Positions 1 to 25,245 are shown, counted from the stretch's first letter. The stretch is DNA of 25,245 nt from Candidatus Hydrothermarchaeum profundi (GCA_002011125.2 MTMF02000003.1:1-25245), one strand, 5' to 3'. Numbers and translations are program-made. The notes: a model not told the origin generated them from the sequence alone.

Positions 1-53
1 ATGACGTCGCCCTTACAAGGCGGAGGTCGCCGGTTCGAATCCGGCCGAGCCCA
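1..53 (+). tRNA. tRNA-Val(UAC), 3' part (5' end outside window)
   Basis: The sequence folds as the end of the D arm, an anticodon stem (TCGCC/GGCGG) closing the 7-nt loop CTTACAA (anticodon TAC), a variable loop, a T arm (GCCGG-TTCGAAT-CCGGC) and the acceptor strand CGAGCCC with discriminator A53. No CCA is encoded. The missing 5' half must lie just left of the window. Because the D-arm end is present here and absent from the right-hand copy, this is the intact, functional copy, with its 3' half supplied by the element's att core. It is the integration target. Confidence 0.88.
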
Positions 54-394
54 TTCTTTTCGGTTGTTTCTTGCTTATTTTCGGGCTTATTCGTTGAAAT
101 AAGTTCAGTCAACTTCTCAATAGCCTCTTCGATCCTTTTGAACCTTTTTTCATATTGTTCCAATTGGCTAATTGATACAAACTCGTTAGCTAATTGGCTA
201 ATATCGCGAACTTTTTTGGCTAATTCGCTTCTAGAGAGGATAATTAATTCTTGACCATCTATTTCAGCGAGGTAGACGATGGCTTTTTGATCAATCCAAT
301 TTTTAAGGATCTGAGGTAATCTAACCCTAGGATAGATAAACTCTCTGATTTTTTCCCTTCCGATCTTTACACTTCCAACTTTTCTAACTCTCAT
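1..394 (-). CDS. SSV-type integrase, N-terminal fragment Int(N), cut at attL
   Basis: An open frame starts at ATG 394 and runs leftward through the attL core and out of the window. About 113 codons precede the core. The first 55 residues look like an AbrB/SpoVT-like strand-rich segment (RVRLPQILKNW, then GQELIILS). A helical coiled-coil segment (LEQYEKRFKRIEEAIEKL) follows, as in SSV-type integrases, where the N-terminus mediates oligomerisation. The core is read as NGLGRIRTGDLRLVRA. Joined through one core to the right-end fragment the total is 1407 nt, exactly 469 codons including stop, with no frame break. In the integrated state this fragment cannot be active alone. A TATA-like box (TTTAAATA, 418-425) places the transcription start at about the ATG, so the mRNA is probably leaderless. 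Confidence 0.88.
   Translation of the reverse strand, partial: MRVRKVGSVKIGREKIREFIYPRVRLPQILKNWIDQKAIVYLAEIDGQELIILSRSELAKKVRDISQLANEFVSISQLEQYEKRFKRIEEAIEKLTELISTNKPENKQETTEKNGLGRIRTGDLRLVRATS
9..54. repeat. attL core (46-bp direct repeat with 25192-25237)
   Basis: This 46-bp stretch is identical to 25192-25237 and the match ends on both sides (TC before and T after here; GA before and C after there). It covers the tRNA-Val anticodon arm, T arm and acceptor strand. On the minus strand it is also coding: it carries codons of the element's own integrase, which is the hallmark of SSV-type integration. Spacing between copies gives an element of 25,183 bp. Confidence 0.95.
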
Positions 395-3463: not shown

Positions 3464-3757
3464 ATGTGTGCAAATGAACTCAATAAACTCTATGATGAAG
3501 AAATTCTGAGAGTTATTGAGGGCTTAAGTCATCCTATCAGGTTGAGCATTTACAATTTGTTAGCGGAGAAGGGTGAGATGTTTACCGGCGATATTTTCAA
3601 GCTGATAAAGGGGGAATTTGGAGTAAGCTCTCACCAAACTCTTTTGAATCATCTGAATGTGATGCAGATATCTGGAATTGTGGAGTTGGAGAGGGTTAAG
3701 AATAGGTACAAGGCTAAACTGAAGAAGATGATTGGGATTGAAGTTAAGGAGATTTAG
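3464..3757 (+). CDS. ArsR-like winged-helix transcription regulator, 97 aa
   Basis: The protein has the ArsR/winged-helix order: helix with IEGLSHPIRLSIYNLLAEKG, a second segment (MFTGDIFKLIKGEFG), the recognition helix (SSHQTLLNHLNVMQISG), and a beta wing (IVELERVKNRYKAKL). No metal-binding cysteine cluster is seen beyond Cys2, so it is probably not a metal sensor. The TATA box 26-32 nt upstream fits a leaderless mRNA. It heads a rightward three-gene run (this gene, a 63-aa protein, a PIN protein) with gaps of 27 and about 15 nt. The TTGTGAT half site at its own start suggests autoregulation. Confidence 0.82.
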   Translation: MCANELNKLYDEEILRVIEGLSHPIRLSIYNLLAEKGEMFTGDIFKLIKGEFGVSSHQTLLNHLNVMQISGIVELERVKNRYKAKLKKMIGIEVKEI

Positions 3758-3784
3758 ATTAAGGCCAATTGAAGGTGGGTTAAA

Positions 3785-3976
3785 ATGAGAAAAGAACGTA
3801 TTATCAATGGAATTCCCTTTGTGCTCCATAGAACATCCAGAAAAAAAAGTACTGCAAATTCTGTTGCACAAAACTTTAGGAATAAGGGATATTACGTAAG
3901 AGTCATTAAAACCGCCAAAGGGTATGAAATCTGGGTTTCAAGAAATCCTAGATGGTTCTACAAGATGATTAAGTAA
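3785..3976 (+). CDS. Small basic protein upstream of PIN nuclease, 63 aa
   Basis: The body follows a beta-alpha-beta pattern: a helix (KKSTANSVAQNFRNKG) leading into YYVRVIKTAKGYEIWVSRN. This pattern recurs in small archaeal plasmid and virus proteins. A GGTGG Shine-Dalgarno site precedes ATG 3785. Because it lies directly before a PIN-domain gene it could be an antitoxin or an RNA-binding partner; the sequence does not show a classical VapB fold (AbrB or ribbon-helix-helix), so that role is uncertain. Confidence 0.65.
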   Translation: MRKERIINGIPFVLHRTSRKKSTANSVAQNFRNKGYYVRVIKTAKGYEIWVSRNPRWFYKMIK

Positions 3977-3991
3977 AATAAAGGGGAATTG

Positions 3992-4567
3992 ATGAAACCT
4001 TTTCAGATATGTGTAGATACAAACATTTGGATTGATTATATTGAAAAAAGAACCGCTCCCGAGAAATCTAGAGAGTTAATTCAAATGTTGACCGACGTAC
4101 ACTCACCACATAAAATAATTGTACCAAAAATACTGTACATTGAAATCGTATCTAAGCTCATTGATAACAGGAAGGAGAAATATTTGATCACAAAGCAAGG
4201 ATATTCCTCTATTGATTTCAAAAGTCCTGAAGGCAAGAAGATAAAATTCAATTTTAAGCTACCAAAAAAGGAGATGAGAGAGATCAAAGACATTTTGTTA
4301 GAATTCGAAAATTCTGATAAAATAGAGATAGTTTCGCCAGGAATTGACCTAGGTAGGGCTGAATTCCTTGTAAAAGAGGGATTTGAACTTATGGATTCTT
4401 TAATAATTGTTCAGATTGCAGATGGAAAGGCCGACTATTTTGTCACAAGAGATAGAGTGGCCAGGAGAATCAATGAAATTAGTCTAAAATGGGTTAAATT
4501 TAAGGCAACCACTGTTAGGGGAATGATTAAGTTATTAAGAAGACTCGATAACAATTTGGTAGGTTAA
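3992..4567 (+). CDS. PIN-domain RNase-like protein, 191 aa
   Basis: The four acidic PIN positions are visible: D9 in ICVDTNIWIDY, E51 in LYIEIVSK, the aspartate of ELMDSLIIVQIA, and the aspartate of VTRDRVARR. PIN proteins are Mg-dependent RNases, typified by VapC toxins. At 191 residues this is longer than VapC (about 130-140 aa), with an insert around residues 60-110. Start ATG 3992 was preferred over the adjacent TTG 3989. It is the last gene of the rightward operon led by the ArsR-like regulator. It may act as a toxin or addiction module, or as an RNase in element-host conflict. Confidence 0.78.
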   Translation: MKPFQICVDTNIWIDYIEKRTAPEKSRELIQMLTDVHSPHKIIVPKILYIEIVSKLIDNRKEKYLITKQGYSSIDFKSPEGKKIKFNFKLPKKEMREIKDILLEFENSDKIEIVSPGIDLGRAEFLVKEGFELMDSLIIVQIADGKADYFVTRDRVARRINEISLKWVKFKATTVRGMIKLLRRLDNNLVG

Positions 4568-4999: not shown

Positions 5000-6109
5000 T
5001 TAAAAAGACGAGGGTTCTTCCTCGCTTGTAAAATTTTTTAAGACTTTAAAATATCTGGTTTTTTTGAGTCTTTTGGTAATAAAATCCTTTAAAAAACTCT
5101 CTTCAAAAGCGTTGTGAAAAGCTTTTTCTTCACATTTGAATACAAATGCATTGTGAATTGCCCTCTTATAAAATGTCCCTTGTTTAGAGTTATCCAATGC
5201 ATTTTTTCTTTCTTTAAGCGATTTTCCATTGCAAATTGGACAGTTACATTCTTTCAGCAACTTGTACTCTTTAAATTTCCTTCTACCGTTTTTAGGTGAG
5301 ATAAATCTATCTCCTATACTTGGTAATTGAAGCGCACCGTATGCAGCTTTCATTCTCCAACTCATAGAATCGACAGAGTCAACACCTAAACTAAACATTA
5401 GGTGCATTGTCGAAACGCTACCGACTCCAAAAACATGAAGGAATGTGTCGGGAAACTCTTCCCTTACAATCGATATTACTTTTGCCATAAATTCTATTGT
5501 ATTTATACCGTTCAACTCCGAAAGTACTGAAGTTTTCATGTACCTTACTATTGGAACTAAACTTCCTATCCCTACCATTTTAGGGTAGGTAATTTCCTTT
5601 ATCTCTTTACAAGCTTTTTTAACGTCATCTATTGTATAACCGTGAATTACGGGCATTAAGGCGATATTATGGGAATTTTCAAGCATGAATTCTGTATTAC
5701 TTATAGTGTTTTTCCATCTCTCAAATCTGCTTTCTAAGTCCATAGGATTAAATGGGTGGTCCAAAACTACACCAATATCCGGTTCAGCTCTTTTATAGAT
5801 ATCAAGTAATAGCTCAGGAGTTACAGGAATGTTCTTTTTCATAAGCTGGAAGCCTCCAGAATCCATCATAACAATTCCGTTTACATTCAGATACTCATGA
5901 ATGGAATCGATTGACATTCTCTTTTCAATTATTTCATAAGCGTTTACCAACACTGTTTCTACCTTAAAATGATCCCATGGGTGGGGTTTGCTTTTAAGTA
6001 AGCATCCCAACCATAAAACAGGAGTTTTTACTTCTTTTCCGTTAATTTCTAAGATCCCTAAACGGGCATTTGTGCTAGAATCCTCTTCTATAACATTAAA
6101 CTTTACCAT
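5000..6109 (-). CDS. dpdA-like: tRNA-guanine-transglycosylase-fold enzyme, DpdA/TgtA5-like, 369 aa
   Basis: The protein keeps the full catalytic set of the TGT superfamily: DSGGFQ with D83, GVDSVDS with D247 as likely nucleophile, and the zinc site C288-x-C290-x2-C293 with H319. It has no PUA or other tRNA-binding C-terminal domain of archaeal TgtA. The substrate-pocket segments differ from both bacterial Tgt and archaeal TgtA (LDHPFNP; MPVIHG). TGT enzymes swap guanine for a 7-deazaguanine (preQ0/preQ1). The DpdA branch does this in DNA within bacterial genomic islands and phages. Being last in an operon with NurA, HerA, a large ATPase and an ArcS-like domain, DNA is the more likely substrate here, but that is inference. 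Its start overlaps the ArcS-like gene by 14 nt, behind AGGAGGT. Confidence 0.85.
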   Translation of the reverse strand: MVKFNVIEEDSSTNARLGILEINGKEVKTPVLWLGCLLKSKPHPWDHFKVETVLVNAYEIIEKRMSIDSIHEYLNVNGIVMMDSGGFQLMKKNIPVTPELLLDIYKRAEPDIGVVLDHPFNPMDLESRFERWKNTISNTEFMLENSHNIALMPVIHGYTIDDVKKACKEIKEITYPKMVGIGSLVPIVRYMKTSVLSELNGINTIEFMAKVISIVREEFPDTFLHVFGVGSVSTMHLMFSLGVDSVDSMSWRMKAAYGALQLPSIGDRFISPKNGRRKFKEYKLLKECNCPICNGKSLKERKNALDNSKQGTFYKRAIHNAFVFKCEEKAFHNAFEESFLKDFITKRLKKTRYFKVLKNFTSEEEPSSF

Positions 6110-6587
6110 CTAATACCTCCTTTATTGTTTTTAAAAGCATAGGTAACTTGTATAAGTTATAGGGTACTGTGATAGGGGAAAACAAACCCTCAGAGGCAGC
6201 TAAAATAATTTTTTTGTGATGATTTGGTGCAAAAACGATAAAATGCTTATGATGAGATATAGCTTTGCTCAAGAACCTTTTCAACCTCTCAACGAATACC
6301 TCTCTACCACCTTCTCCCAACATCTCAGGTGGAAATTCATAATGAGCTGCAGGGTATTTTTCCTCCCACTCTCTGGGCACTACGACTAATGGTTCTCCAA
6401 TGATATATTGCTGGACAAATTCATCTAGGCCATGCTTTACCAACAATCCAATAGTTTTTTTGTGCATAAACGAGGCTGAATATGGTTTATGTTGACTACA
6501 ACCCATTAGTAATGCAATCATTTTTTCACTCTTCCATTCTTCCATAACAGAAGAATAAAAAGAGACTACATCAGGGAGAAAAAACAT
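6096..6587 (-). CDS. arcS-like: Free-standing ArcS core (archaeosine synthase, DUF5591-like) domain, 163 aa
   Basis: The archaeosine synthase signature PC-x3-KPY-x2-S-x2-H is matched as GC-SQH-KPY-SA-S-FM-H (C30, K34-Y36, S39, H42), with Gly for Pro. A second conserved block, VVVPREWEEKYPAAHYEFPP, also fits the family. Cellular ArcS is a 500-600-aa protein with a TGT-like N-terminus and a PUA domain; it acts on the nitrile of preQ0 in tRNA on the way to archaeosine (with the radical-SAM partner RaSEA in many species). Here only the catalytic core is present, next to its own TGT-fold partner, so together they amount to a split, PUA-less ArcS/TGT. ATG 6587 is preceded by GGGGGA; TTG 6623, 8 nt after AAGGAGGT, is an alternative start. 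Confidence 0.82.
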   Translation of the reverse strand: MFFLPDVVSFYSSVMEEWKSEKMIALLMGCSQHKPYSASFMHKKTIGLLVKHGLDEFVQQYIIGEPLVVVPREWEEKYPAAHYEFPPEMLGEGGREVFVERLKRFLSKAISHHKHFIVFAPNHHKKIILAASEGLFSPITVPYNLYKLPMLLKTIKEVLDGKV

Positions 6588-6638
6588 CTCCTCTCCCCCT
6601 CTCAGAATTGTACGTGAACCCAAGTTTCTCAACCTCCT

Positions 6639-9600
6639 TCAAATTGTCAATGAAACTCCTAAATTCAGGTAACCATCCTTTACGAGCTTAATCACTATTT
6701 CATAAACTTCGGAATTATCGAATTTGGATTTCTCTTTTACTTTATTAACAAGCTGATCTATCCAAATAACCTTGGACTTCTTGCACATTTCAACAACACT
6801 TTCTAAAACAACCAATTCTTTCTCACCTAAAATAATTTTAATCTTTTTATAAAATTCATTCTTTATTGATTCTTTTTCGCTCTCGATTTCACTTAGTTTA
6901 GCAGTGGAAGTGATGAATTCTGTATCAACTATTTTGAATCTTATTACATCAATTTTATCCAATAATTTTGAGACATCCAATTCACTATGTTTTTTATATA
7001 CTATATCTATCAACTGACTTAGATCCCGCAGATACTCTAGAGTTTTTTGAGTATATTCGTCCCAAATTTCGTTTAACTCGTCTATCAAGTCCTCCGAACG
7101 AATCATAATACCATCTAAATATTTAATCAAATCTAGTTCTTTCTCAAGCGATTCCAATAATCTATTTGGGTCAAAATCATCGTAATTGTAGGCCATAGAG
7201 GGTTTTGCAGATAAACTTTCTACTAACTCTTCTAAGTTTACTTTAATATTTTCAATTTTTGGCTTGCAACTTTCCAGATCCAGAAATTCTTCTCCTTTTT
7301 CGATGAACTTTTTAGTTCTTTTAATCTTCTCATGCACCGAGTTTTCTTTCCTAACAAGCCTATCCAAATAGTTAACTAATGTTTCTACAGCAATTAAATT
7401 TCTTTCGATTGGTTCCAAAGATCTGTCGATAATTTTTACCAAATCCATTATAGATACATTCTTTATTTTCTCTTCTCTCAAGCCAGGCATAAGATTTTTT
7501 GAATAATTCCTTAGGTATTTTAACAATTCACGTGAAAAATTTAGTTGTTCATCTATTTCCTTGGATTTGACAGTTAAAGACACTCTTTTAAATTTCTGTT
7601 CAATACCTTTAAATTTTTCATTAATATTTTTTAAGACGTCGTATTTTCTGTCAAATTTATCAAGAAACTCTTTGGCCAAGACATTGATTAAAAATAATTT
7701 TACATTAAAATATGGAAATTTATTATCTTCTTTACTGAAATAAAAGTCATCGTAGATTTCATCTTTGTATCTATCCAAGATATCTCTTAGCTCTTCAAAA
7801 TTTGAACAATTCTCAACACTTTTGATCTCAGAGATGAGGAAAGTTAACTCTCTACTATCCTTGACATCTTGTTTGTATATTTCTATTTTTAGCCACTTTT
7901 TAAAATACTTACAAATGATTTCCAGAACATCTTCGAAATCTTTCTTTCTTTCATCTATTTCATTTATTATTTCTTCACATTCAGCTTTTGCAATGGATAT
8001 ATTTTTTAGCCATGTACTTGAAAAATAGTTTGCTAACTTATAAATCAAAAATGTTTTCTGAAGTCTAACACTCTCGTCTGTTAGAGTTTCAATATAATCA
8101 TATTGTCTAGAAATAAAATCCCAAAACTCGTCTAATACTATAAGTCGTTCATCTCGCTGTTTAACCACATAACAAAAACCATATTTTTTAAACTTGCTGT
8201 CTAGGGCTGCCTTTCTGATTTTATTAAATTCAACATCCAATTTTTTCTTCAAACTAGTTTCATTTGCGATTTCAATTTGTTTTTTCTCAACTAGGATTTT
8301 CCCCTTATGTTCCAAAACATTCAGATAAAGATCTGAAAGAATCCTTTTATTAGAACTTAAAATTATGAAATAATTCTTTAAATTTTCTTCACTTATTTTC
8401 CCCTTTTCAGATTTGATGATCTTCATAATCCTATTTTCTACTGGGTGTTCCTTGATCTCATAGCCTTGTACGGGATCACCGATCAAAAACCCATTGTTCT
8501 CTAGATCTTTAGAGAGGCTTTTCAATTTATCAACAGATTCTATATCCGGTATAAAACCTATCCTAGAGCCGAATTTAATGAATTTCTTTAACTCATCTCT
8601 ATTTAGATAAAAGGCATTTTCTGGGGTTAATTTACTCTCCGAAAAATTTATATAAAATTTTAGAGCATCAGCAAGTTCTTTATGGCTGGCAGCAAAATTA
8701 AGAGTTGGATCTGTTATCACGAGTCCCAATTTTTCTTGTTCTTTAAGCCAGTCTCTTAACTTTCTTTCAAGGTTGGTATCTTCTTGGATAATTTTATGTG
8801 ATTCTCTGGAGAACATTTCCTTATCTATATACTCATAATGTTTCAAATAAGCTCTGTACATCACAATTATCTTCTTCAGCAAAGTTGGGTGTAGTTTAAT
8901 AAGCATGATTATATTCTCTCCATTTTTACCTAACTCTTTGTTCTCTATCTTTTCTTCTGCTTTAAATGTTAATTCCCCAGTGTATGTAGCCAATATTAAA
9001 TGTACAGGAGCGTTAAAGCTACTTAATACGCTATGAATTTCATCGATGTCTTGCCCCTTAAGATCTCCATTTGCAAAGTAAAAAAGCGTATTAATTGTAG
9101 CATCATCTAAGATAATCTTAACAAAACTGATATTTCTTTGCTCTTCCAGCCTCTCAATTCTAAAAATTTTTGATTCCTCTAATACAATTAAAAGAGCTTT
9201 AGGGAGAAATTCTTGAGATTGATCAGCTAATTTTCTTGTAACGTCCCTCCATAACCTCATTCTTAGTTCTCGGTCCGTAATAAATTCTAATTCCTTTGGA
9301 ACTGGTGTTGGGAATATTTGTGAAAGTAGTTGCTCACTTGCAAGATAATATACTTCTGTATCGTCACACAATTTTAGCAATTTATTTCTAAATTCTACTA
9401 TTTGATCTTCACCTATTCCTTCGAAAAAAGAGGAAATACTGTCATCATCTGTCGGTAAATAGATTTGCGGATGTATTTTGTCTCCAAAAATGTGGGGGAA
9501 TGTAATTTTATCCAAGAAATTATCCATATTCTCAACATAGCTGCCAACTCTAAGCACTTCTGTATCTTTTTCTTTAAATATATAATCGGATAATCTAGCT

Positions 9601-10865
9601 TTAATGTCATTGGAGTCCAGTTCTTCCTTCAACCTTCTTACTTTTAACACAGCTTTAATAATACCAAATCTTTCCAAACTCTCATTTATCTTTGAGATAA
9701 TATTGCCAATATCGTCGAACCCTAATCTCTCCTCAATTTGTGAAGGAGAAAGAGGCCCGTATTCTCCAATCAGTAGCCTAAAAACTTCAACACATTTCCT
9801 ACCCATCTCTATGTTTCTTTGATCTTCAAGTGCATTCAACATTCTATCTAGGTTATCATTTTCAATACAAGTTGTAGAACCACCATACACTGAGACAGTC
9901 TCCCCTCTCATATATTCTAAAAATATATCATAGTCAATAATTTTAACTCTTGAATCATCCACTTTTGAGCTTCCTAATAATCGGGTGAGTAAACTTACCA
10001 TATTTCCTAAGTTTCCGTGCGCCACTCTTACTATCCCATTAAAAATGCCCAGACTCTCTATAGGCAATTTTTTTGGTAAATTGTAATTATATGAATACTT
10101 TAACAACTCCCAAAGAAATTGTATCCCCTCTATTTTCTTGATTCCAGGTAGCTCAATAATACCTATCCTTCTACCTAAACCTCCAAAAATTAAAGATGTC
10201 TCTTCACTGACTTGTAGTTTATAGAACGCATCTGGAGTTGCTGCAAGTATGAAGTGTAAACTTCCTTCAAACTCTCCGTTTTCAAAAATTGGTTTAAATT
10301 GCCCATTAATTGTCTCTTTGATGCCAGAAATTACTTTTTTCAAAATATCCATATTTAAAAGTAGCTCCTCGAATTCATCAATAAAAACGATTATTTTTTT
10401 GGTGTTTATGGTTAATTTCCTAAGTGCATTCTCAACAAATTCATTAGGACTACTGAATTCAAAAGGTTCAGGAATAAGTTGGGGGTCGGATTCAGCTTTG
10501 ATACTAGCAAACAAGGCTACCAAAAATTGGAGTGAAGAGGAAGGTGTAGAGTTTATCAATTTCTTGACATCGTAAACATCAGTAAAAGCATTTGAAAGAG
10601 TTGAGGCCGATACAAGAATCGGGAGGTATCCCTTAGTCTCAGCAAATGGCTTGATACATCTTTCAAATGTATCAGTTTTCCCTTCACCCCACTCACCAAT
10701 AATGACACGAATGGTAGGTTTTCTCTCTGTTGTTACTACCGAGTCGATATATTGTTCTAATTTTTTTCTAACGGTTAACCTACTTTCGATTGTGATATTT
10801 CCGAACCCTTCAAAAACAACTCCCGCATCACTTGGCAGTCGTGAAAAAACATCTGTAAACTCCAT
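6639..10865 (-). CDS. Very large P-loop ATPase with long coiled-coil C-terminus, 1408 aa
   Basis: The N-terminal 400 residues form a STAND/AAA-like ATPase: Walker A GEWGEGKT (57-64), Walker B KIIVFIDEFEEL (D163-E164), and a downstream ILAATPDA sensor-like stretch (about 205-215). A winged-helix-like segment follows (LLIGEYGPLSPSQIEERLG). The remaining 900 or so residues are helical, charged and rich in coiled coil, and the last 60 resemble another winged helix. No nuclease motif was found. The size and layout are like the large ATPases of multi-gene phage-defence systems (BrxC/PglY, DpdH), but I cannot place it in any one of them. It starts behind GGTGG 8 nt after the HerA stop; the ArcS-like gene follows. 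It may sense invading DNA or couple modification to the nuclease module. Confidence 0.75.
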   Translation of the reverse strand: MEFTDVFSRLPSDAGVVFEGFGNITIESRLTVRKKLEQYIDSVVTTERKPTIRVIIGEWGEGKTDTFERCIKPFAETKGYLPILVSASTLSNAFTDVYDVKKLINSTPSSSLQFLVALFASIKAESDPQLIPEPFEFSSPNEFVENALRKLTINTKKIIVFIDEFEELLLNMDILKKVISGIKETINGQFKPIFENGEFEGSLHFILAATPDAFYKLQVSEETSLIFGGLGRRIGIIELPGIKKIEGIQFLWELLKYSYNYNLPKKLPIESLGIFNGIVRVAHGNLGNMVSLLTRLLGSSKVDDSRVKIIDYDIFLEYMRGETVSVYGGSTTCIENDNLDRMLNALEDQRNIEMGRKCVEVFRLLIGEYGPLSPSQIEERLGFDDIGNIISKINESLERFGIIKAVLKVRRLKEELDSNDIKARLSDYIFKEKDTEVLRVGSYVENMDNFLDKITFPHIFGDKIHPQIYLPTDDDSISSFFEGIGEDQIVEFRNKLLKLCDDTEVYYLASEQLLSQIFPTPVPKELEFITDRELRMRLWRDVTRKLADQSQEFLPKALLIVLEESKIFRIERLEEQRNISFVKIILDDATINTLFYFANGDLKGQDIDEIHSVLSSFNAPVHLILATYTGELTFKAEEKIENKELGKNGENIIMLIKLHPTLLKKIIVMYRAYLKHYEYIDKEMFSRESHKIIQEDTNLERKLRDWLKEQEKLGLVITDPTLNFAASHKELADALKFYINFSESKLTPENAFYLNRDELKKFIKFGSRIGFIPDIESVDKLKSLSKDLENNGFLIGDPVQGYEIKEHPVENRIMKIIKSEKGKISEENLKNYFIILSSNKRILSDLYLNVLEHKGKILVEKKQIEIANETSLKKKLDVEFNKIRKAALDSKFKKYGFCYVVKQRDERLIVLDEFWDFISRQYDYIETLTDESVRLQKTFLIYKLANYFSSTWLKNISIAKAECEEIINEIDERKKDFEDVLEIICKYFKKWLKIEIYKQDVKDSRELTFLISEIKSVENCSNFEELRDILDRYKDEIYDDFYFSKEDNKFPYFNVKLFLINVLAKEFLDKFDRKYDVLKNINEKFKGIEQKFKRVSLTVKSKEIDEQLNFSRELLKYLRNYSKNLMPGLREEKIKNVSIMDLVKIIDRSLEPIERNLIAVETLVNYLDRLVRKENSVHEKIKRTKKFIEKGEEFLDLESCKPKIENIKVNLEELVESLSAKPSMAYNYDDFDPNRLLESLEKELDLIKYLDGIMIRSEDLIDELNEIWDEYTQKTLEYLRDLSQLIDIVYKKHSELDVSKLLDKIDVIRFKIVDTEFITSTAKLSEIESEKESIKNEFYKKIKIILGEKELVVLESVVEMCKKSKVIWIDQLVNKVKEKSKFDNSEVYEIVIKLVKDGYLNLGVSLTI

Positions 10866-10873
10866 ATTACCAC

Positions 10874-12553
10874 CTATAAATTGTCAACAACTTTTGTTTC
10901 GCCAATTGTTGGTTTGACCTTCCTTTCCTCATAATTAACTTCAACTACCAAAGGAAAAGGAACTGTCACCATCTGTCCCGTAACAATTAATTCGCCAGTA
11001 TTTAAAGTTGTAAGTCTCATAGATAGCGATTGGGGCAGTCCCCCAGTTACACTCCTAACGAAACTAACATCTTCTGGTGAAACTCGATGAATAAAAAAAG
11101 TATTGCACATTGAAAGAACTATTCTGTCGACAAACGAAGGTCTTTGAGTGATTAGGCATAAAGAGAGGCCAAATTTCCTTCCTTGTGTAGCAATGGCCGA
11201 TAGTTTCGAATGCGCAAGACTAGATCCTATTGGATAAGATTTATCTGGGCAGAAATTTTGAGCCTCCTCGATAATGAACAACAAATACTTCTGTGACCCC
11301 TCTAATTTATATTTGGTGAATTTATTGAACAAAATTGTCGTAAGATACATCATTACAAACTGTTTAGTTTTCAAATCCACCCCAGGTGCTCCTTCGGCTG
11401 AAAAGTCAAATACTGCTACACCTCTGTTATTTGTGATGTCATCAATGAAATCCTCACCCTTCATTGGCGAAGAAGTTGAGAGTAATTTAAATACTCCCTC
11501 TAATTTAAAAAATTCTTTAAGCTGCCTTCTTATTGCACCAATTGTGGCTGTGTGATAATTAAACGGTTTTTTATCAAGATGGTCTACGTGTCTTATCAGT
11601 TCCTCTATATCATTACATATAAGATCGTGGATAGAGCTGTAGCCTAACGCTTCCATGTATCCAAACAAATCTATTAATGCACTGATTTGCTGTTCAGCCC
11701 CTTCTGTAGTGCCTCTCAAGAAAGTTACTATGATTTCTGCTAACTCAGCATAGCTGAGCAAATCAATGTCAATGCCTATAGGATGGGTGAATTCGTTTCT
11801 GAATTCTGGTTTTTCAAAATAGATATTTGGAAAAACAAATCTTTGAACCCACCCGGATTTTATCCATTCTTTGTTTTCTGACTTACTTTCATTAGCGTAT
11901 CTCACGTAATCTAAATAATCACCATGTGCATCTATAATTACCATAGGATACGAAACGTGCTCAAAATCATTTTTGGGAATATTCATGAGTTTTTCGATTA
12001 AATATCCGGTATTGAATGATTTGCCGCTTCCTGTAACTCCAAAAACAGCCAAGTGCATTGGGATATTTTCGACATCTAGAGGGATAGGTAGGCTTCCATA
12101 TCCACTTAGAGAACCAAATTTAATTATTCCCCTATACATTCCATTTGAAAGTCTTTTTTCCCGCGAGACCCCAAAGAGATCTTCTTCGTAGTATTCATAC
12201 AATTCGGGATCTACTTTGACAACAACATCCCCAGGCCAAGGAGGATATTGAATTTCTCTTCGAGGAACTTCTATAAGTAATTCCAGTTTACATATCTCGT
12301 ATTGTCTAGCAATCGCTTCAGGTATAGGTCTTCCTTCCCTTCTAGCCTCGCTCCAAGGATCTCCCTCTGTATAGAAGGCATTATAAGGTAGGATCTGGGA
12401 AACTCTACACAAAATTTTTCTCCCTCTTGAATTGATAATCAACAACATACCCTCTCTTATTTTTCCTTTTTCGGCCTCTTTTAAGAGTTGGCATGCCGCC
12501 TCTCTTGTTGTTGCACCGCTTAAGATTATTCCAATTTCATCTTTCTCAACCAT
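10874..12553 (-). CDS. herA: HerA-type hexameric DNA translocase, 559 aa
   Basis: An N-terminal HAS-type beta barrel (about residues 1-115) precedes a FtsK/HerA RecA-like core. Walker A is GVTGSGKS (172-179), Walker B is YLLFIIEEAQNF (E429/E430), followed by TQGRKFGLSLCLITQRPS, the family's sensor/arginine region. HerA forms a ring that pumps double-stranded DNA and works with the nuclease NurA in DNA-end resection; HerA also appears in several defence systems. The NurA gene lies 5 nt upstream, keeping the usual partner pair. GAGGTGA precedes ATG 12553. Being in an operon with base-modification enzymes, rather than with Mre11-Rad50, sets it apart from the chromosomal version. It is likely an element-specific paralogue. 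Confidence 0.9.
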   Translation of the reverse strand: MVEKDEIGIILSGATTREAACQLLKEAEKGKIREGMLLIINSRGRKILCRVSQILPYNAFYTEGDPWSEARREGRPIPEAIARQYEICKLELLIEVPRREIQYPPWPGDVVVKVDPELYEYYEEDLFGVSREKRLSNGMYRGIIKFGSLSGYGSLPIPLDVENIPMHLAVFGVTGSGKSFNTGYLIEKLMNIPKNDFEHVSYPMVIIDAHGDYLDYVRYANESKSENKEWIKSGWVQRFVFPNIYFEKPEFRNEFTHPIGIDIDLLSYAELAEIIVTFLRGTTEGAEQQISALIDLFGYMEALGYSSIHDLICNDIEELIRHVDHLDKKPFNYHTATIGAIRRQLKEFFKLEGVFKLLSTSSPMKGEDFIDDITNNRGVAVFDFSAEGAPGVDLKTKQFVMMYLTTILFNKFTKYKLEGSQKYLLFIIEEAQNFCPDKSYPIGSSLAHSKLSAIATQGRKFGLSLCLITQRPSFVDRIVLSMCNTFFIHRVSPEDVSFVRSVTGGLPQSLSMRLTTLNTGELIVTGQMVTVPFPLVVEVNYEERKVKPTIGETKVVDNL

Positions 12554-12558
12554 TTAAT

Positions 12559-13666
12559 TCACCTCATTCTACTGGCTACAAGTTGATCGAAAGGATCGAT
12601 ACTCCTACTTTTCGTCAGTATTTCTTCATAAAGAATTTCTGCAGCCCCCCTCCTGATATTACATTTCTCATGAGCAAGTAAAACTGGAAGGGGATCTTGT
12701 CCAGGGTAAGTCCAATAATCAAGCGTATTAACGACTTTCTCAACTGTTGAATTAACTAAATCTAAATTTTCTCCAGGTGGAAAGCTGAAAGGGATATCAA
12801 TTCTTAATATTTTAGATCTTATATCCCTCTCATAGAAAAAGGAAATGATATATATATCGTTTTCATAATATTTTGAAAATGGTATTCCTCTCATTTCCTC
12901 GCTTAAGTCGATCCATTGAGTATATATTGAGCCAGCGGGGAAATCTCTCCTTAATTTTGTAAATAAGAGGAGCATTAAGTGTTGATCGGTAGGAAACGTC
13001 TCTGCTTCCTTAATACCAAAATTGTTAGTTATATAATGAATAAAAAATCTATCACGTACTCTTTTTACACATCCGATAACTAACGAATTTTTTAAAGATA
13101 CTCTAAAAGCTTCACACCTGAAGTTTATGTAATCCTCATCATCGGAAAATGGAAAAGGGGGATCTACAATTGGACCATCTATAAAAATAACCGATTTAAA
13201 ACCCTTACTTCCCCAATTTAGAATGGCTTTTGATTCTGCAATCAACATCCTCTCCTCTGCTGTTAGTTTAATACTTTGATTGTTATGTTCATTGATTTCA
13301 TCTATATCTGCCCAAAAAACTTCAACTTGCGGATTAGATTTTAATCCGTTTTTAAATAAAATCCTAGTTACACTAAAAAAAAGGTACCACTTTCCTCCTA
13401 TCCCTCCGACGAGTTGTTGACTGCCGTCTATTCCTACTGCAAACTTTTCAACTTTGGAGTGGTCAATAGACGGATTTATTGAAAAAAAAGATTTTGATTT
13501 TAGATTGTCTAAAACCTTGTCAGTTAGTTTTTCTTAGCCTCCTCAACTCTCTCTGGGCTTTCTCTCCTTTACTTTGAGCAGACTCGATTAGTTTAATTAG
13601 TGTTTCAGGTTCTGTTTTGTTAAATTCTATTCTTTTAAGTAACTCTTTTAATTCTTCATAATTCAT
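12559..13666 (-). CDS. nurA: NurA-family 5'-3' nuclease with an apparent +1 frameshift
   Basis: Two frames together make a NurA of about 368 aa. ATG 13666 opens a 48-codon frame (MNYEELKELLKRIEF..., stop at 13520). The next frame, open from 13533 to 12559, carries FAVGIDGSQQ (catalytic Asp of NurA) and, further on, VIFIDGPIVDPP, both family hallmarks. Removing one A from the five-A run (T run 13528-13532 on plus) fuses them smoothly (RRLRK-LTDKVLDN). No ATG/GTG/TTG starts the second frame before ATG 13248, which lies past the catalytic IDGS, so an isolated second frame would be inactive. It is either a genuine mutation, a homopolymer read error, or programmed frameshifting. It is first in the cargo operon; HerA follows 5 nt later. 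Confidence 0.72.
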
Positions 13667-14410: not shown

Positions 14411-14756
14411 ATGAAAATATTTTAAATTTTAATTTTTTTATTTGTTCTTCCAAGAAATTCTCAAATAGAGATGACTTATATCTCACTTTTCCGAACTCCT
14501 CCCACTCAGATACAACGGAAGATGCATAACATCGCTGAAGATTCGAGAAGGATAGACAATAATGGCCTTATCGTTCCTAAGGGATTGAAACAAAGCATTG
14601 AGCCTTTGTAGCTTCGGCTGATCGTTAGTAAAGAAACCTCCCCTCCTTACCAATAACCAGTTGAAGGAGAGATTTTACACCCTTTCTTATCTTGAACCAT
14701 CCTTGAGTTGTTGCAACGAACCTGATTTTCAGGCTTCTGAGCTTCTTGATGTTCAG
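14411..14756 (-). pseudogene. Broken duplicate of the packaging-ATPase 3' end
   Basis: Read on the minus strand this stretch is strongly similar to 15800-16165, the last third of the FtsK/HerA-type ATPase at 15815-16708. Matching pieces include KKLRSLKIRFVATTQGWFK, NDQPKLQRLNALFQSL, IIVYPSRIFSDVMHLPLY and GKVRYKS. Two frameshifts break it: one extra base after KGVKS and one missing base after the PLY block. It has no start and no P-loop. The similarity continues a little past the stop into the AT-rich terminator-like tail. It is a degenerate copy in the same orientation as the intact gene, about 1.4 kb away, not a functional gene. Confidence 0.85.
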
Positions 14757-14844
14757 ATTTTATCGATTCAAAAGACATGTAGAGACATCTTAAAGAAGTG
14801 CAGATGTTTTGACAAGATATTTTAAAAGCAAAATGGAAAAATAG

Positions 14845-15814: not shown

Positions 15815-16708
15815 TTAAATTTTATTTTTCAAATCTAAGAAATTATTTCCTCTAGTGAACTTTTCAAAAGCAAACGATCTGTATCTTACTCTCCCAAATT
15901 CCTCTCCATTTGGATAGAGAGGAAGATGCATAACATCGCTGAAGACTCTTGAAGGATAAACGATTACTGCTTCGTCATTCTTCAAAGACTGAAAAAGTGA
16001 ATTGAACCTTTGTAGTTTTGGCTGATCGTTGGAGAAGTAGCCCCCTCTCCTGACAAGCAACCAATTGAATGATGATCTAACTCCCTTTCTTATCTTGAAC
16101 CATCCTTGAGTTGTAGCTACAAATCTAACTTTCAAGCTGCGAAGCTTCTCGATGTTTAGCTGAATTATAGATCCAACTTTGCCTACTCCCTCCTCGCCAT
16201 GTCCTTGTGCTGGAGCAACGACGTGGAACTCGTCGAAGAAAATTGAGAGTGGTGTAACATAATCAAGGTGGGCATCATGAGCTAGATATATGAGGGATTT
16301 GAAGATGGCTGAGAAGATTTTGGCGTAAGTTTCTGGATCGTGTATGTATGGATACAAGGAGAGAACGTTGATTTTATTGGGGTCTAGATTTAGCCAGATC
16401 AGTCGGGGATCGTCGAACTGGCTTATATGGATGTCATGTAATTCGTCACAGCTTCTCTCGTTCAGTAAGATCGAAATCTCAAATGTTTCTGGGATCATGA
16501 CGTTGAGGGGTTTGAATAGAGCGAGAGTCAGAAATTCGGAGGATTTTCCTGTATCAAACCAGACAATCGTCTCGTTTGAGGAGTGAGTTAACCCATCAAG
16601 AATCCAGTAGAGTCCTTGGGTCTTCCCACTGCCGGTAATTCCTATCTCCAGGATGTGCTGTCCTGGAATTTTCAGGCATTCCCTCTCAAATTTCTCCTGC
16701 CAGCCCAT
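15815..16708 (-). CDS. FtsK/HerA-superfamily ATPase, packaging-type, 297 aa
   Basis: Walker A GITGSGKT (residues 23-30) is followed by IVWFDTGKSSEF, the Walker B LSIFFDEFHVVAP, and VRFVATTQGWFKIRKG, the usual sensor block of FtsK/HerA ATPases. At about 300 aa it has no barrel domain and matches the compact ATPases of archaeal viruses and pT26-2-like elements, which are thought to pump DNA or drive assembly. I chose ATG 16708, with GGGAGG 4 nt upstream, over TTG 16726. It is the last gene of the leftward structural operon. A broken copy of its 3' third lies at 14411-14756. Confidence 0.82.
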   Translation of the reverse strand: MGWQEKFERECLKIPGQHILEIGITGSGKTQGLYWILDGLTHSSNETIVWFDTGKSSEFLTLALFKPLNVMIPETFEISILLNERSCDELHDIHISQFDDPRLIWLNLDPNKINVLSLYPYIHDPETYAKIFSAIFKSLIYLAHDAHLDYVTPLSIFFDEFHVVAPAQGHGEEGVGKVGSIIQLNIEKLRSLKVRFVATTQGWFKIRKGVRSSFNWLLVRRGGYFSNDQPKLQRFNSLFQSLKNDEAVIVYPSRVFSDVMHLPLYPNGEEFGRVRYRSFAFEKFTRGNNFLDLKNKI

Positions 16709-23968: not shown

Positions 23969-24187
23969 TCAAAGAAGTCCCTTCTCCCTGAAATGCTTCT
24001 CTAGAGCAATGTTTACCAAATCTGAAAGTCGATAGTTGTTTAGTCGGATGATGTCATAGAGTTCCTTCTCGATGTGGACTGTGGTCATAATTCTGTTCTT
24101 CTTTTCTAATTTGAGAATTCTCTTCATTGCGATTGAGTTTGTAAGTTTGGTTTCAGGTAGTGGTTTGATTTTATCGTCTTTTTCCAT
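23969..24187 (-). CDS. Ribbon-helix-helix regulator next to integrase, 72 aa
   Basis: The last 40 residues match the ribbon-helix-helix pattern: strand NRIMTTVHIEKEL, helix YDIIRLNN, turn YRLSD, helix LVNIALEKHFREK. A 30-residue charged N-terminal arm precedes it. The start overlaps the last 17 nt of the integrase frame and is preceded by GGAGGG, so both are co-translated. It is a likely recombination-directionality factor or integrase regulator and a candidate binder of the TTAGCTAA palindrome at the integrase promoter. Confidence 0.78.
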   Translation of the reverse strand: MEKDDKIKPLPETKLTNSIAMKRILKLEKKNRIMTTVHIEKELYDIIRLNNYRLSDLVNIALEKHFREKGLL

Positions 24188-25238
24188 AATCGCCCTCCAA
24201 CCTTCTTACAATTTCAAGGAGTTTAGGCCTACAATCCATAGGTATGAGTTCAACACTTCCCATAAAAGCCATGTATTGATTGTAAATCCTTTGGGGTGTA
24301 GCCCGATCGTAGAATTCCCTTGAGATCCCAGAGATCTCATGAGCCATGATATACTTTCGGAGCTCATCGTCCATTCTTTGCTCAAGATCCCACTTGGTGA
24401 ATTGCTCGAAGAAATATCTGCCGAACTGGAAGTTTATCCTTTCTCCTTCCTCTTTGGTATTAATATTCAGCCTTGCCAAAATCCTTCCTATTCTGTCGTT
24501 GTCAAAAAGTCTCATCCACCTAGGGTTTTCTCGGTAGGCGTTCAGGTAAACCTCTAGCAAAGGCTTGATCTCTCGATGAATTGGAATGTAATGGTGATAT
24601 ATAGCTCCAGAATGGGAAATCTTTGATTCAATCAGATCGAGGTAATCGCACGATCCATTGAACTTTATGTTTTCCTCTGTTATCTCATCAAACATCTCAC
24701 TCCTTAATCCAGTTGAGCATTTTAGCAACCACATAACCGAATATCTCAGCTTATCTAAGTTTTTGAGATCTGAGTTCAAGATTCTATTGAGAACTTCATG
24801 GACATCCTCAAGAGAAACATAGGGAGTTTTTGATTGCTTGGTTACATTCTTGAACTTGTTTCTCTTTAGGATTTCAATTATGCTATCATAGAGTTCGCTA
24901 TTCTGATAATCAACAGTCTTAAGATAGTCCATGAACTGCTTGGCAAGTTGTAACCTCTGATTTATTTCCCAAGCAGATAAATTATTTCCAGTCGTTTCCG
25001 ATTTCAAACTCCTTATATAGGCAACGAATTGATATATACCATGGGGTGAGAACTCAAATTTTAAAAGATCCCTAATGGTCTTCTTTGCCTTCAGAAACCG
25101 CATTTTGCTAACTTTTTCCTTCATTAGACTGAGCCACCTATCCGACTCTGCTTTTAAGTCGAATTGTGCTTTATTTTCCTCTCTTATATGAGCCCTTACA
25201 AGGCGGAGGTCGCCGGTTCGAATCCGGCCGAGCCCATC
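24171..25238 (-). CDS. SSV-type tyrosine integrase, C-terminal fragment Int(C)
   Basis: The catalytic domain is complete. Counting from ATG 25124: R141 in STGLRSEM, a basic strand near K168, R236 in GRYFFEQF, H262 in MAHE and the tyrosine Y272 in REFYDRA. The frame has no stop from 25124 up through the attR core to 25238, reading LGRIRTGDLRLVRAHIREEN across and after the tRNA segment. ATG 25124 is thus an internal methionine, not the true start. The missing N-terminus is encoded at the left end (1-394). Joined over one att core the gene is 469 codons including stop. Integration therefore disrupts the gene and locks the element in place unless an intact integrase is supplied. Confidence 0.9.
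   Translation of the reverse strand, partial: DGLGRIRTGDLRLVRAHIREENKAQFDLKAESDRWLSLMKEKVSKMRFLKAKKTIRDLLKFEFSPHGIYQFVAYIRSLKSETTGNNLSAWEINQRLQLAKQFMDYLKTVDYQNSELYDSIIEILKRNKFKNVTKQSKTPYVSLEDVHEVLNRILNSDLKNLDKLRYSVMWLLKCSTGLRSEMFDEITEENIKFNGSCDYLDLIESKISHSGAIYHHYIPIHREIKPLLEVYLNAYRENPRWMRLFDNDRIGRILARLNINTKEEGERINFQFGRYFFEQFTKWDLEQRMDDELRKYIMAHEISGISREFYDRATPQRIYNQYMAFMGSVELIPMDCRPKLLEIVRRLEGDYGKRR
25192..25237. repeat. attR core, 3' tRNA-Val fragment
   Basis: Identical to 9-54. Here the segment is preceded by element DNA (TATGA), not by a tRNA 5' half, so this is the truncated copy left by integration. Confidence 0.95.
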
Positions 25239-25245
25239 CTATTTT

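Follow-up and report, generated by a model that had tools for sequence, protein, structure and literature searches.

Why should a TGT-family base transglycosylase and a free ArcS-like core stand in one tightly packed run of genes with the nuclease NurA and the DNA translocase HerA? The question is raised by positions 5000-13666 of a 25,245-bp contig of the archaeon Candidatus Hydrothermarchaeum profundi (hereafter the window, meaning the complete contig, which is the whole stretch analysed), a 25-kb mobile element that carries a five-gene cassette on its minus strand. Transcribed from 13666 towards 5000, the cassette comprises NurA, HerA, a 1408-aa P-loop ATPase, a free DUF5591 (ArcS-core) protein and a TGT, with spacings of 5 bp between NurA and HerA, 8 bp between HerA and the ATPase, 6 bp between the ATPase and DUF5591, and -14 bp between DUF5591 and the TGT:

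5000..6109, minus strand: TGT-family base transglycosylase, 369 aa (Pfam TGT, PADLOC DpdA, PDB profiles, tree, catalytic and zinc residues)
6096..6632, minus strand: free ArcS-core protein (DUF5591), 178 aa (Pfam DUF5591, profile match to AF0587/2q07, low-confidence model)
6639..10865, minus strand: P-loop ATPase, 1408 aa, the signature protein of the cassette (AAA_22 and nSTAND_NTPase5 matches, alignments)
10874..12553, minus strand: HerA DNA translocase, 559 aa (Pfam DUF87, identity to other archaeal cassette HerAs)
12559..13666, minus strand: NurA nuclease, split by a frameshift near 13523 (uninterrupted relatives, invariant acidic residues)

A preliminary description of this DNA had listed five packed minus-strand genes, and all of them are present at the place and on the strand given; the aspartate pair and zinc site of the TGT, the ArcS signature, the Walker motifs and the NurA IDGS motif are likewise real on alignment. 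Only its account of the NurA gene needs amending: the IDGS motif is there, but the single open frame is not, as the frame is broken in the window copy. The same description had proposed that HerA-NurA works with a DNA-modification module of the 7-deazaguanine type, an idea now supported by conservation across two domains of life, the TGT tree, a DUF6884-TGT fusion, preQ0-related neighbours at two loci and separate host machinery. We consider it probable that the cassette is a restriction-modification-like defence system carried as cargo by an integrative element, the mark, its DNA target and the restriction step being what we infer. Our best reading is that of a 7-deazaguanine DNA modification-restriction system with HerA-NurA as the restriction arm, which by gene content is neither Dpd nor BREX-related capture (BRC).

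The grouping is not a product of chance, since the set is seen again at 13 further loci and its genes in the close pair L010-L011 are under purifying selection (dN/dS 0.04-0.33). Searching 394 archaeal genomes, one per species, with the ATPase gave five other matches, four of which carry the whole cassette. A scan of GTDB contigs, which used two peptide patterns and whose locus counts are lower bounds, gave at least 12 loci, and in 10 of the 12 the ATPase is directly preceded by NurA and/or HerA; the carriers were Archaeoglobales, Aenigmatarchaeota, an uncultured archaeon, Methanomethylicota and Methanodesulfokora (the last being a locus already in the 394-genome search) among archaea, and Chloroflexi, an actinobacterium, Poribacteria, Bacteroidota and an unclassified bacterium among bacteria. 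In all, at least 14 loci (the window and 13 others) are spread over several archaeal phyla and bacteria, and some of the carriers are complete or near-complete genomes. The preliminary description had allowed that its proposal would fall if the five genes never occurred together elsewhere; they do recur together, and the term "archaeal" that it used for the system is too narrow, given the bacterial carriers. The cassette is nonetheless rare, with 3/151, 1/350, 2/364 (one a fragment) and 1/29 genomes positive in four further phylum samples.

TGT, NurA, HerA, the ATPase and a fifth gene, either DUF5591 or DUF6884, are present in all nine loci that are not cut by a contig end. Two layouts exist: NurA-HerA-ATPase-DUF5591-TGT, in the window, L013, L015 and L017, and TGT-NurA-HerA-ATPase with DUF6884 alongside, in L009, L010, L011, L018 and L021. 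The tree of NurA, HerA and ATPase combined agrees with that of the TGT in recovering (window,L013), (L015,L017) and (L009,(L010,L021)), the last moderately supported for the TGT, and the Bacteroidota copy nests beside an archaeal one; the five genes thus travel together between domains.

What, then, would the transglycosylase act on? The window TGT (Pfam TGT, 8e-24) has a single TGT domain and no PUA domain, and belongs to the TGT superfamily by its general base D83 (MDSGGF), nucleophile D247 (VDSVDSMSWR) and zinc ligands C288/C290/C293/H319, which are invariant in five system TGTs and kept in the eight aligned. The PADLOC DpdA model matches it at 6e-13. In a tree of 31 TGT domains, some of whose rows are partial, the cassette TGTs form one group (support 86/89) that joins DpdA, the TGT of virus STSV2 and a phage TGT (81/88), and the archaeal and bacterial tRNA TGTs group apart (97/99).

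The fifth gene points to a partner enzyme. The window DUF5591 protein (Pfam, 3e-16) carries CSQHKPYSASFMH, which reads as C-x3-KPY-x2-S-x2-H and identifies it as an ArcS core; at 178 aa and 65 bits against the ArcS equivalog model (full-length cut-off 600), it is not a full-length ArcS. Its sequence profile matches AF0587 (2q07) at 2.5e-12, and the same structure was the top VIA-align match both for the DUF6884 model (pLDDT 88; Z 8.6, next 5.3) and for the low-confidence DUF5591 model (Z 10.4, next 5.4). With Foldseek alone neither partner model had a significant PDB match, and the absence of YaaA and DpdC from the VIA-align structure matches of the partner models is uninformative either way. 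The sequence-profile comparison of DUF5591 with DUF6884 was not significant, and the aligned stretch contains a CS-x2-K motif. DUF6884 is fused to a TGT in a Nostoc protein annotated as DpdA (Pfam 8e-11) and in archaeal L100 (2e-17), and these fused proteins give weak Pfam YaaA matches; together with the view of the Pfam curators, who group DUF6884 with YaaA in the cantaloupe fold and note its CxxxK motif and its putative DNA-binding cleft (PMC11701544), these matches are the basis of the DUF6884-YaaA link. In Dpd systems, DpdC, a member of the YaaA family DUF328, converts dPreQ0 to dADG (PMC12839542), and lysine transfer by ArcS occurs even on the bare preQ0 nucleoside (PMC11298593). Considering the shared AF0587 match, the DUF6884-TGT fusion, the kinship with YaaA and DpdC and the chemistry of ArcS, DUF5591 and DUF6884 are best read as filling one slot, that of a finishing enzyme for the inserted base.

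Two further genes keep company with DUF6884. One encodes a LAGLIDADG-like protein, a candidate DNA-recognition subunit, at L010:5946-7046, L011:5543-6643 and L021:12467-13645 (26% identity between L010 and L021, archaea versus Bacteroidota, E 3e-30). The other, a DUF1232 protein, adjoins DUF6884 at L009:15851-16273 and L021:12035-12466, and is 62% identical between the archaeon and the Bacteroidota.

Precursor supply would suit a 7-deazaguanine mark. In Chloroflexi L018, only 20 bp separate the TGT from the end of a queuosine-precursor transporter gene (TIGR00697, 3e-35) upstream of it, and no QueC was seen in that genome; L024 has, upstream of NurA, a gene for QueC (1e-38). The host of the window has a strong QueC (1e-57), along with its own arcTGT (a 636-aa frame), an ArcS-like protein, RaSEA and a chromosomal NurA distinct from the cassette pair. 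A tRNA role for the cassette TGT would therefore be redundant, and the cassette is neither the tRNA set nor the repair set of its host. Besides arcTGT, a bacterial-type Tgt is present in two archaeal assemblies, at G000:C8:6827-7873 (L027) and G394:C1:32823-33974 (L028), by contamination or transfer.

The predicted cutting arm comprises NurA, HerA and the giant ATPase. HerA (Pfam DUF87, 4e-24) has intact Walker A and B motifs, which place it in its family, and is 54-63% identical to the HerAs of other archaeal cassettes. NurA matches Pfam at 0.002 in the window copy and at 1e-6 in the relative L009; its IDGS and FIDGP motifs are invariant across 12 relatives, and D36, E100 and D119 (P0005 numbering) are invariant too, so that it has the marks of the NurA fold, in a window copy that is frameshifted. 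Residues 1-48, counted from 13666, lie in one frame that meets a stop at 13520-13522, and the rest, IDGS included, occupies a different frame at 13533-12559, where the earliest in-frame ATG (13248) falls past this catalytic motif. A single extra A in the A-run at about 13523 would explain the break. The frame is uninterrupted in the other complete cassette copies, and because the part beyond the break retains 76% identity to the NurA of L013, with low dN/dS, the frameshift is either recent or an assembly error. In T. kodakarensis, HerA-NurA cuts both strands of double-stranded DNA, and an antiviral role was suggested by the authors (PMC12977600).

The giant ATPase has an AAA/STAND-like N-terminus, with matches to AAA_22 and nSTAND_NTPase5 in seven of 12 members; its Walker A (GEWGEGKT) and Walker B (FIDEFEE) are essentially invariant in 12 relatives, and two members show a weak match to a NACHT-associated inactive nuclease. 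Homology to BrxC/DUF6079 was rejected (hhalign probability 0.2, against 98.6 for the positive control), and Pfam DUF6079 had no match among the cassette ATPases scanned. The ATPase profile does align, over 1301 columns, with chromosomal ATPases of Thermoproteota that have no other cassette genes nearby. These distant homologues, on Thermoproteota-type chromosomes, lie at L012:5923-10446, L022:1225-4898 and L023:9744-13916, with no NurA, HerA or cassette TGT adjoining.

How might these parts work together? In the write arm, the DpdA-side TGT would replace guanine in DNA by a 7-deazaguanine precursor, for example preQ0. The nitrile of the inserted base would be converted by the ArcS-core or cantaloupe-fold partner (DUF5591 here, DUF6884 in relatives); the product could be a lysine adduct, then perhaps archaeosine with the help of host RaSEA, or alternatively an amide. 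In the cut arm, the giant ATPase would sense, or load on, DNA without the mark and pass it to the HerA ring, which would pump it into NurA for double-strand degradation. More tentatively, we posit a new restriction-modification system of archaea and bacteria, in which the HerA-NurA resection machine has been recruited as a restriction arm gated by a 7-deazaguanine mark (in archaea possibly deoxyarchaeosine), written on cellular DNA by a TGT resembling DpdA together with its partner, a free ArcS core or DUF6884.

Several observations weigh against a DNA modification-restriction system. DNA as the target of the TGT is something we infer, and by profile score the enzyme is nearer to arcTGT than to DpdA: among PDB profiles it matches arcTGT 1iq8, its nearest full-length solved structure, at 1e-37 and DpdA 7ui4 at 3.5e-7, and its NCBIfam DpdA score is 47 bits for a cut-off of 200. 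Its placement on the DpdA side of the tree has moderate support (81/88, 87/81, 86/89), with rows that are partly fragmentary. The DUF5591 model is of low confidence (pLDDT 53), and L024 and L020 have no TGT on their complete side. QueC matches are weak in G372, G394 and G395, hosts of cassettes of the DUF5591 type, where incomplete genomes or salvage could be the reason. The five cassette genes include no obvious mark-reading domain or sequence-specificity subunit, and the window copy, its NurA being frameshifted, may not restrict.

Could the mark instead protect the element? The preliminary description had offered this as its second option: the element would mark its own DNA against host nucleases, with HerA, NurA and the ATPase serving its replication, recombination or packaging. 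The window is indeed a mobile element bounded by att-like repeats, phages resist restriction via 7-deazaguanines (PMC6884629), and a related TGT occurs in the STSV1/2 viruses. However, the relatives sit on cellular contigs, some of them beside other defence genes: Mrr in L018, DUF2357/PDDEXK_7 with an AAA ATPase in L009, and a DUF4007-like protein in L010. Neither the ATPase, the TGT nor HerA had a cassette relative in IMG/VR (four queries in all), the ATPase had none in plasmids, and phages and plasmids yielded only distant TGTs. Low GC and a flanking duplication, detailed below, mark the cassette as cargo. We therefore regard anti-restriction as unlikely.

Still less probable, in our view, is that a TGT/ArcS pair which modifies tRNA or another RNA has come to adjoin a HerA-NurA repair or defence operon by chance. 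The ArcS core is known from tRNA archaeosine synthesis, and arcTGT is the best full-length PDB match noted above. Yet the genes stay linked in both domains and their trees are congruent, the TGT falls in with DpdA and the viral enzymes, and the host already possesses arcTGT, an ArcS-like protein and RaSEA. Bacteria, moreover, carry the set, and archaeosine is not known from bacterial tRNA. Least likely of all is that the TGT and its partner are effectors, writing a base into invader DNA or RNA once ATPase, HerA and NurA detect infection, so as to block replication or flag the nucleic acid for cleavage: the gene content does not dictate which step comes first, and the weak STAND/AAA features of the ATPase are those of sensors, but the Dpd base is a self mark (PMC12839542) and NurA, itself a nuclease, cuts without needing one.

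If the modification-restriction system is the right interpretation, how new is it? The Dpd system also combines a DpdA-type TGT, a cantaloupe-fold partner (DpdC there, DUF6884/DUF5591 here) and a multi-gene restriction arm; the restriction set of the cassette, however, is HerA, NurA and a 1400-aa ATPase, and the partner comes from a different family. A PADLOC scan of the five proteins matched only TGT/DpdA, HerA-type and, weakly, DndH models, and detected no DpdB, DpdC or DpdD-K. BRC, a 2026 prediction, comprises PglZ, DUF6079, STAND, DUF4007 and HerA, with TGT and GNAT in a subset only (PMC12839542). It resembles the cassette in combining HerA, a TGT and a large P-loop ATPase, and in its predicted self-marking plus capture, whereas the cassette is without PglZ or GNAT, its ATPase is not detectably DUF6079, and it has a NurA and DUF5591/DUF6884 core. 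Neither PglZ nor DUF4007 was found among the cassette genes scanned (a scan that did not take in the wider flanks of all loci), and a DUF4007-like gene lies near L010.

The archaeal HerA-NurA end-resection complex is made of the same two families, encoded by neighbouring genes, but the cassette pair is a second, divergent one tied to an ATPase and a TGT. HerA-Sir2, HerA-DUF4297 and HerA/Orc-Cdc6 capture systems similarly pair a HerA ring with a nuclease or AAA ATPases in defence, and differ, as described, in that the nuclease is not NurA and a TGT is not reported (PMC10853773, PMC12977600). The archaeosine tRNA pathway (arcTGT, ArcS, RaSEA) draws on the same enzyme families and shares the C-x3-KPY motif of the ArcS core; it differs from the cassette, where the TGT has no PUA domain and the ArcS core is free. 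The preliminary description knew of no system with this gene set, and none was found in the searchable literature; nor was any paper linking NurA and HerA to a TGT or to 7-deazaguanine, with an earlier mention in Thiaville 2016, Gedara 2023 or Iyer 2013 being possible.

Besides the tRNA enzyme, archaeal genomes encode further TGTs with no assigned target, and in the cassette one of these is linked with a complete set of genes that includes a nuclease of its own. Were the proposal true, 7-deazaguanine marking of DNA, seen in bacterial islands, phages and archaeal viruses, would extend to a cellular archaeal system, and HerA-NurA would gain a defence role with a defined trigger. DUF5591 and DUF6884 would then share the slot of a base-finishing TGT partner, from which a function could be predicted for unannotated DUF6884 genes.

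The remainder of the window bears on how the cassette travels. Beyond the cassette, four features are relevant:

9..60, plus strand: att-like direct repeat, the 3' half of a tRNA gene (repeat comparison)
14479..14771, minus strand: remnant of a second 3' end of the P-loop ATPase gene of the element, beside the cassette at NurA (76% over 296 bp)
24171..25124, minus strand: putative tyrosine-recombinase integrase, adjoining an att-like repeat (read from the sequence alone)
25192..25243, plus strand: second att-like direct repeat (repeat comparison)

The contig ends in 52-bp direct repeats that are 96% identical, and an exact 35-bp core is present only twice. The repeat resembles the 3' half of a tRNA gene, with T-arm GGTTCGAATCC and anticodon loop CTTACAA, the latter making it probably Val-UAC. 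Family searches gave no informative match for the putative integrase. The tRNA-like end repeats, one of them with the recombinase-like gene alongside, are att-like sites, and the contig is an integrative element. GC content is 29-38% over 4-16 kb, compared with 42-44% at 16-22 kb. The P-loop ATPase gene of the element has its 3' end present twice (14479-14771 and 15882-16176), likely a trace of cassette insertion. Together, low GC and flanking duplication point to the cassette as cargo. The element as a known virus was considered and set aside, as its ATPase and replication-like gene were unmatched in phages and the ATPase was unmatched in IMG/VR. On the other side of the cassette, at 3464-4567 of the window (plus strand), HTH and PIN-domain genes form a possibly toxin-antitoxin-like pair.

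Other TGT sets were encountered on plasmids. Haloarchaeal plasmids (L061 6539-15031, L065 5787-12331 and L059) have a TGT set of another kind, which includes a BREX-type ATP-binding protein; on two of them a QueD-like gene lies nearby, and one of these also has QueE and an EVE-domain protein. On a cyanobacterial plasmid (L060 10567-16026), a TGT adjoins a putative exonuclease and a protein of 1041 aa, in what may be a parallel layout.

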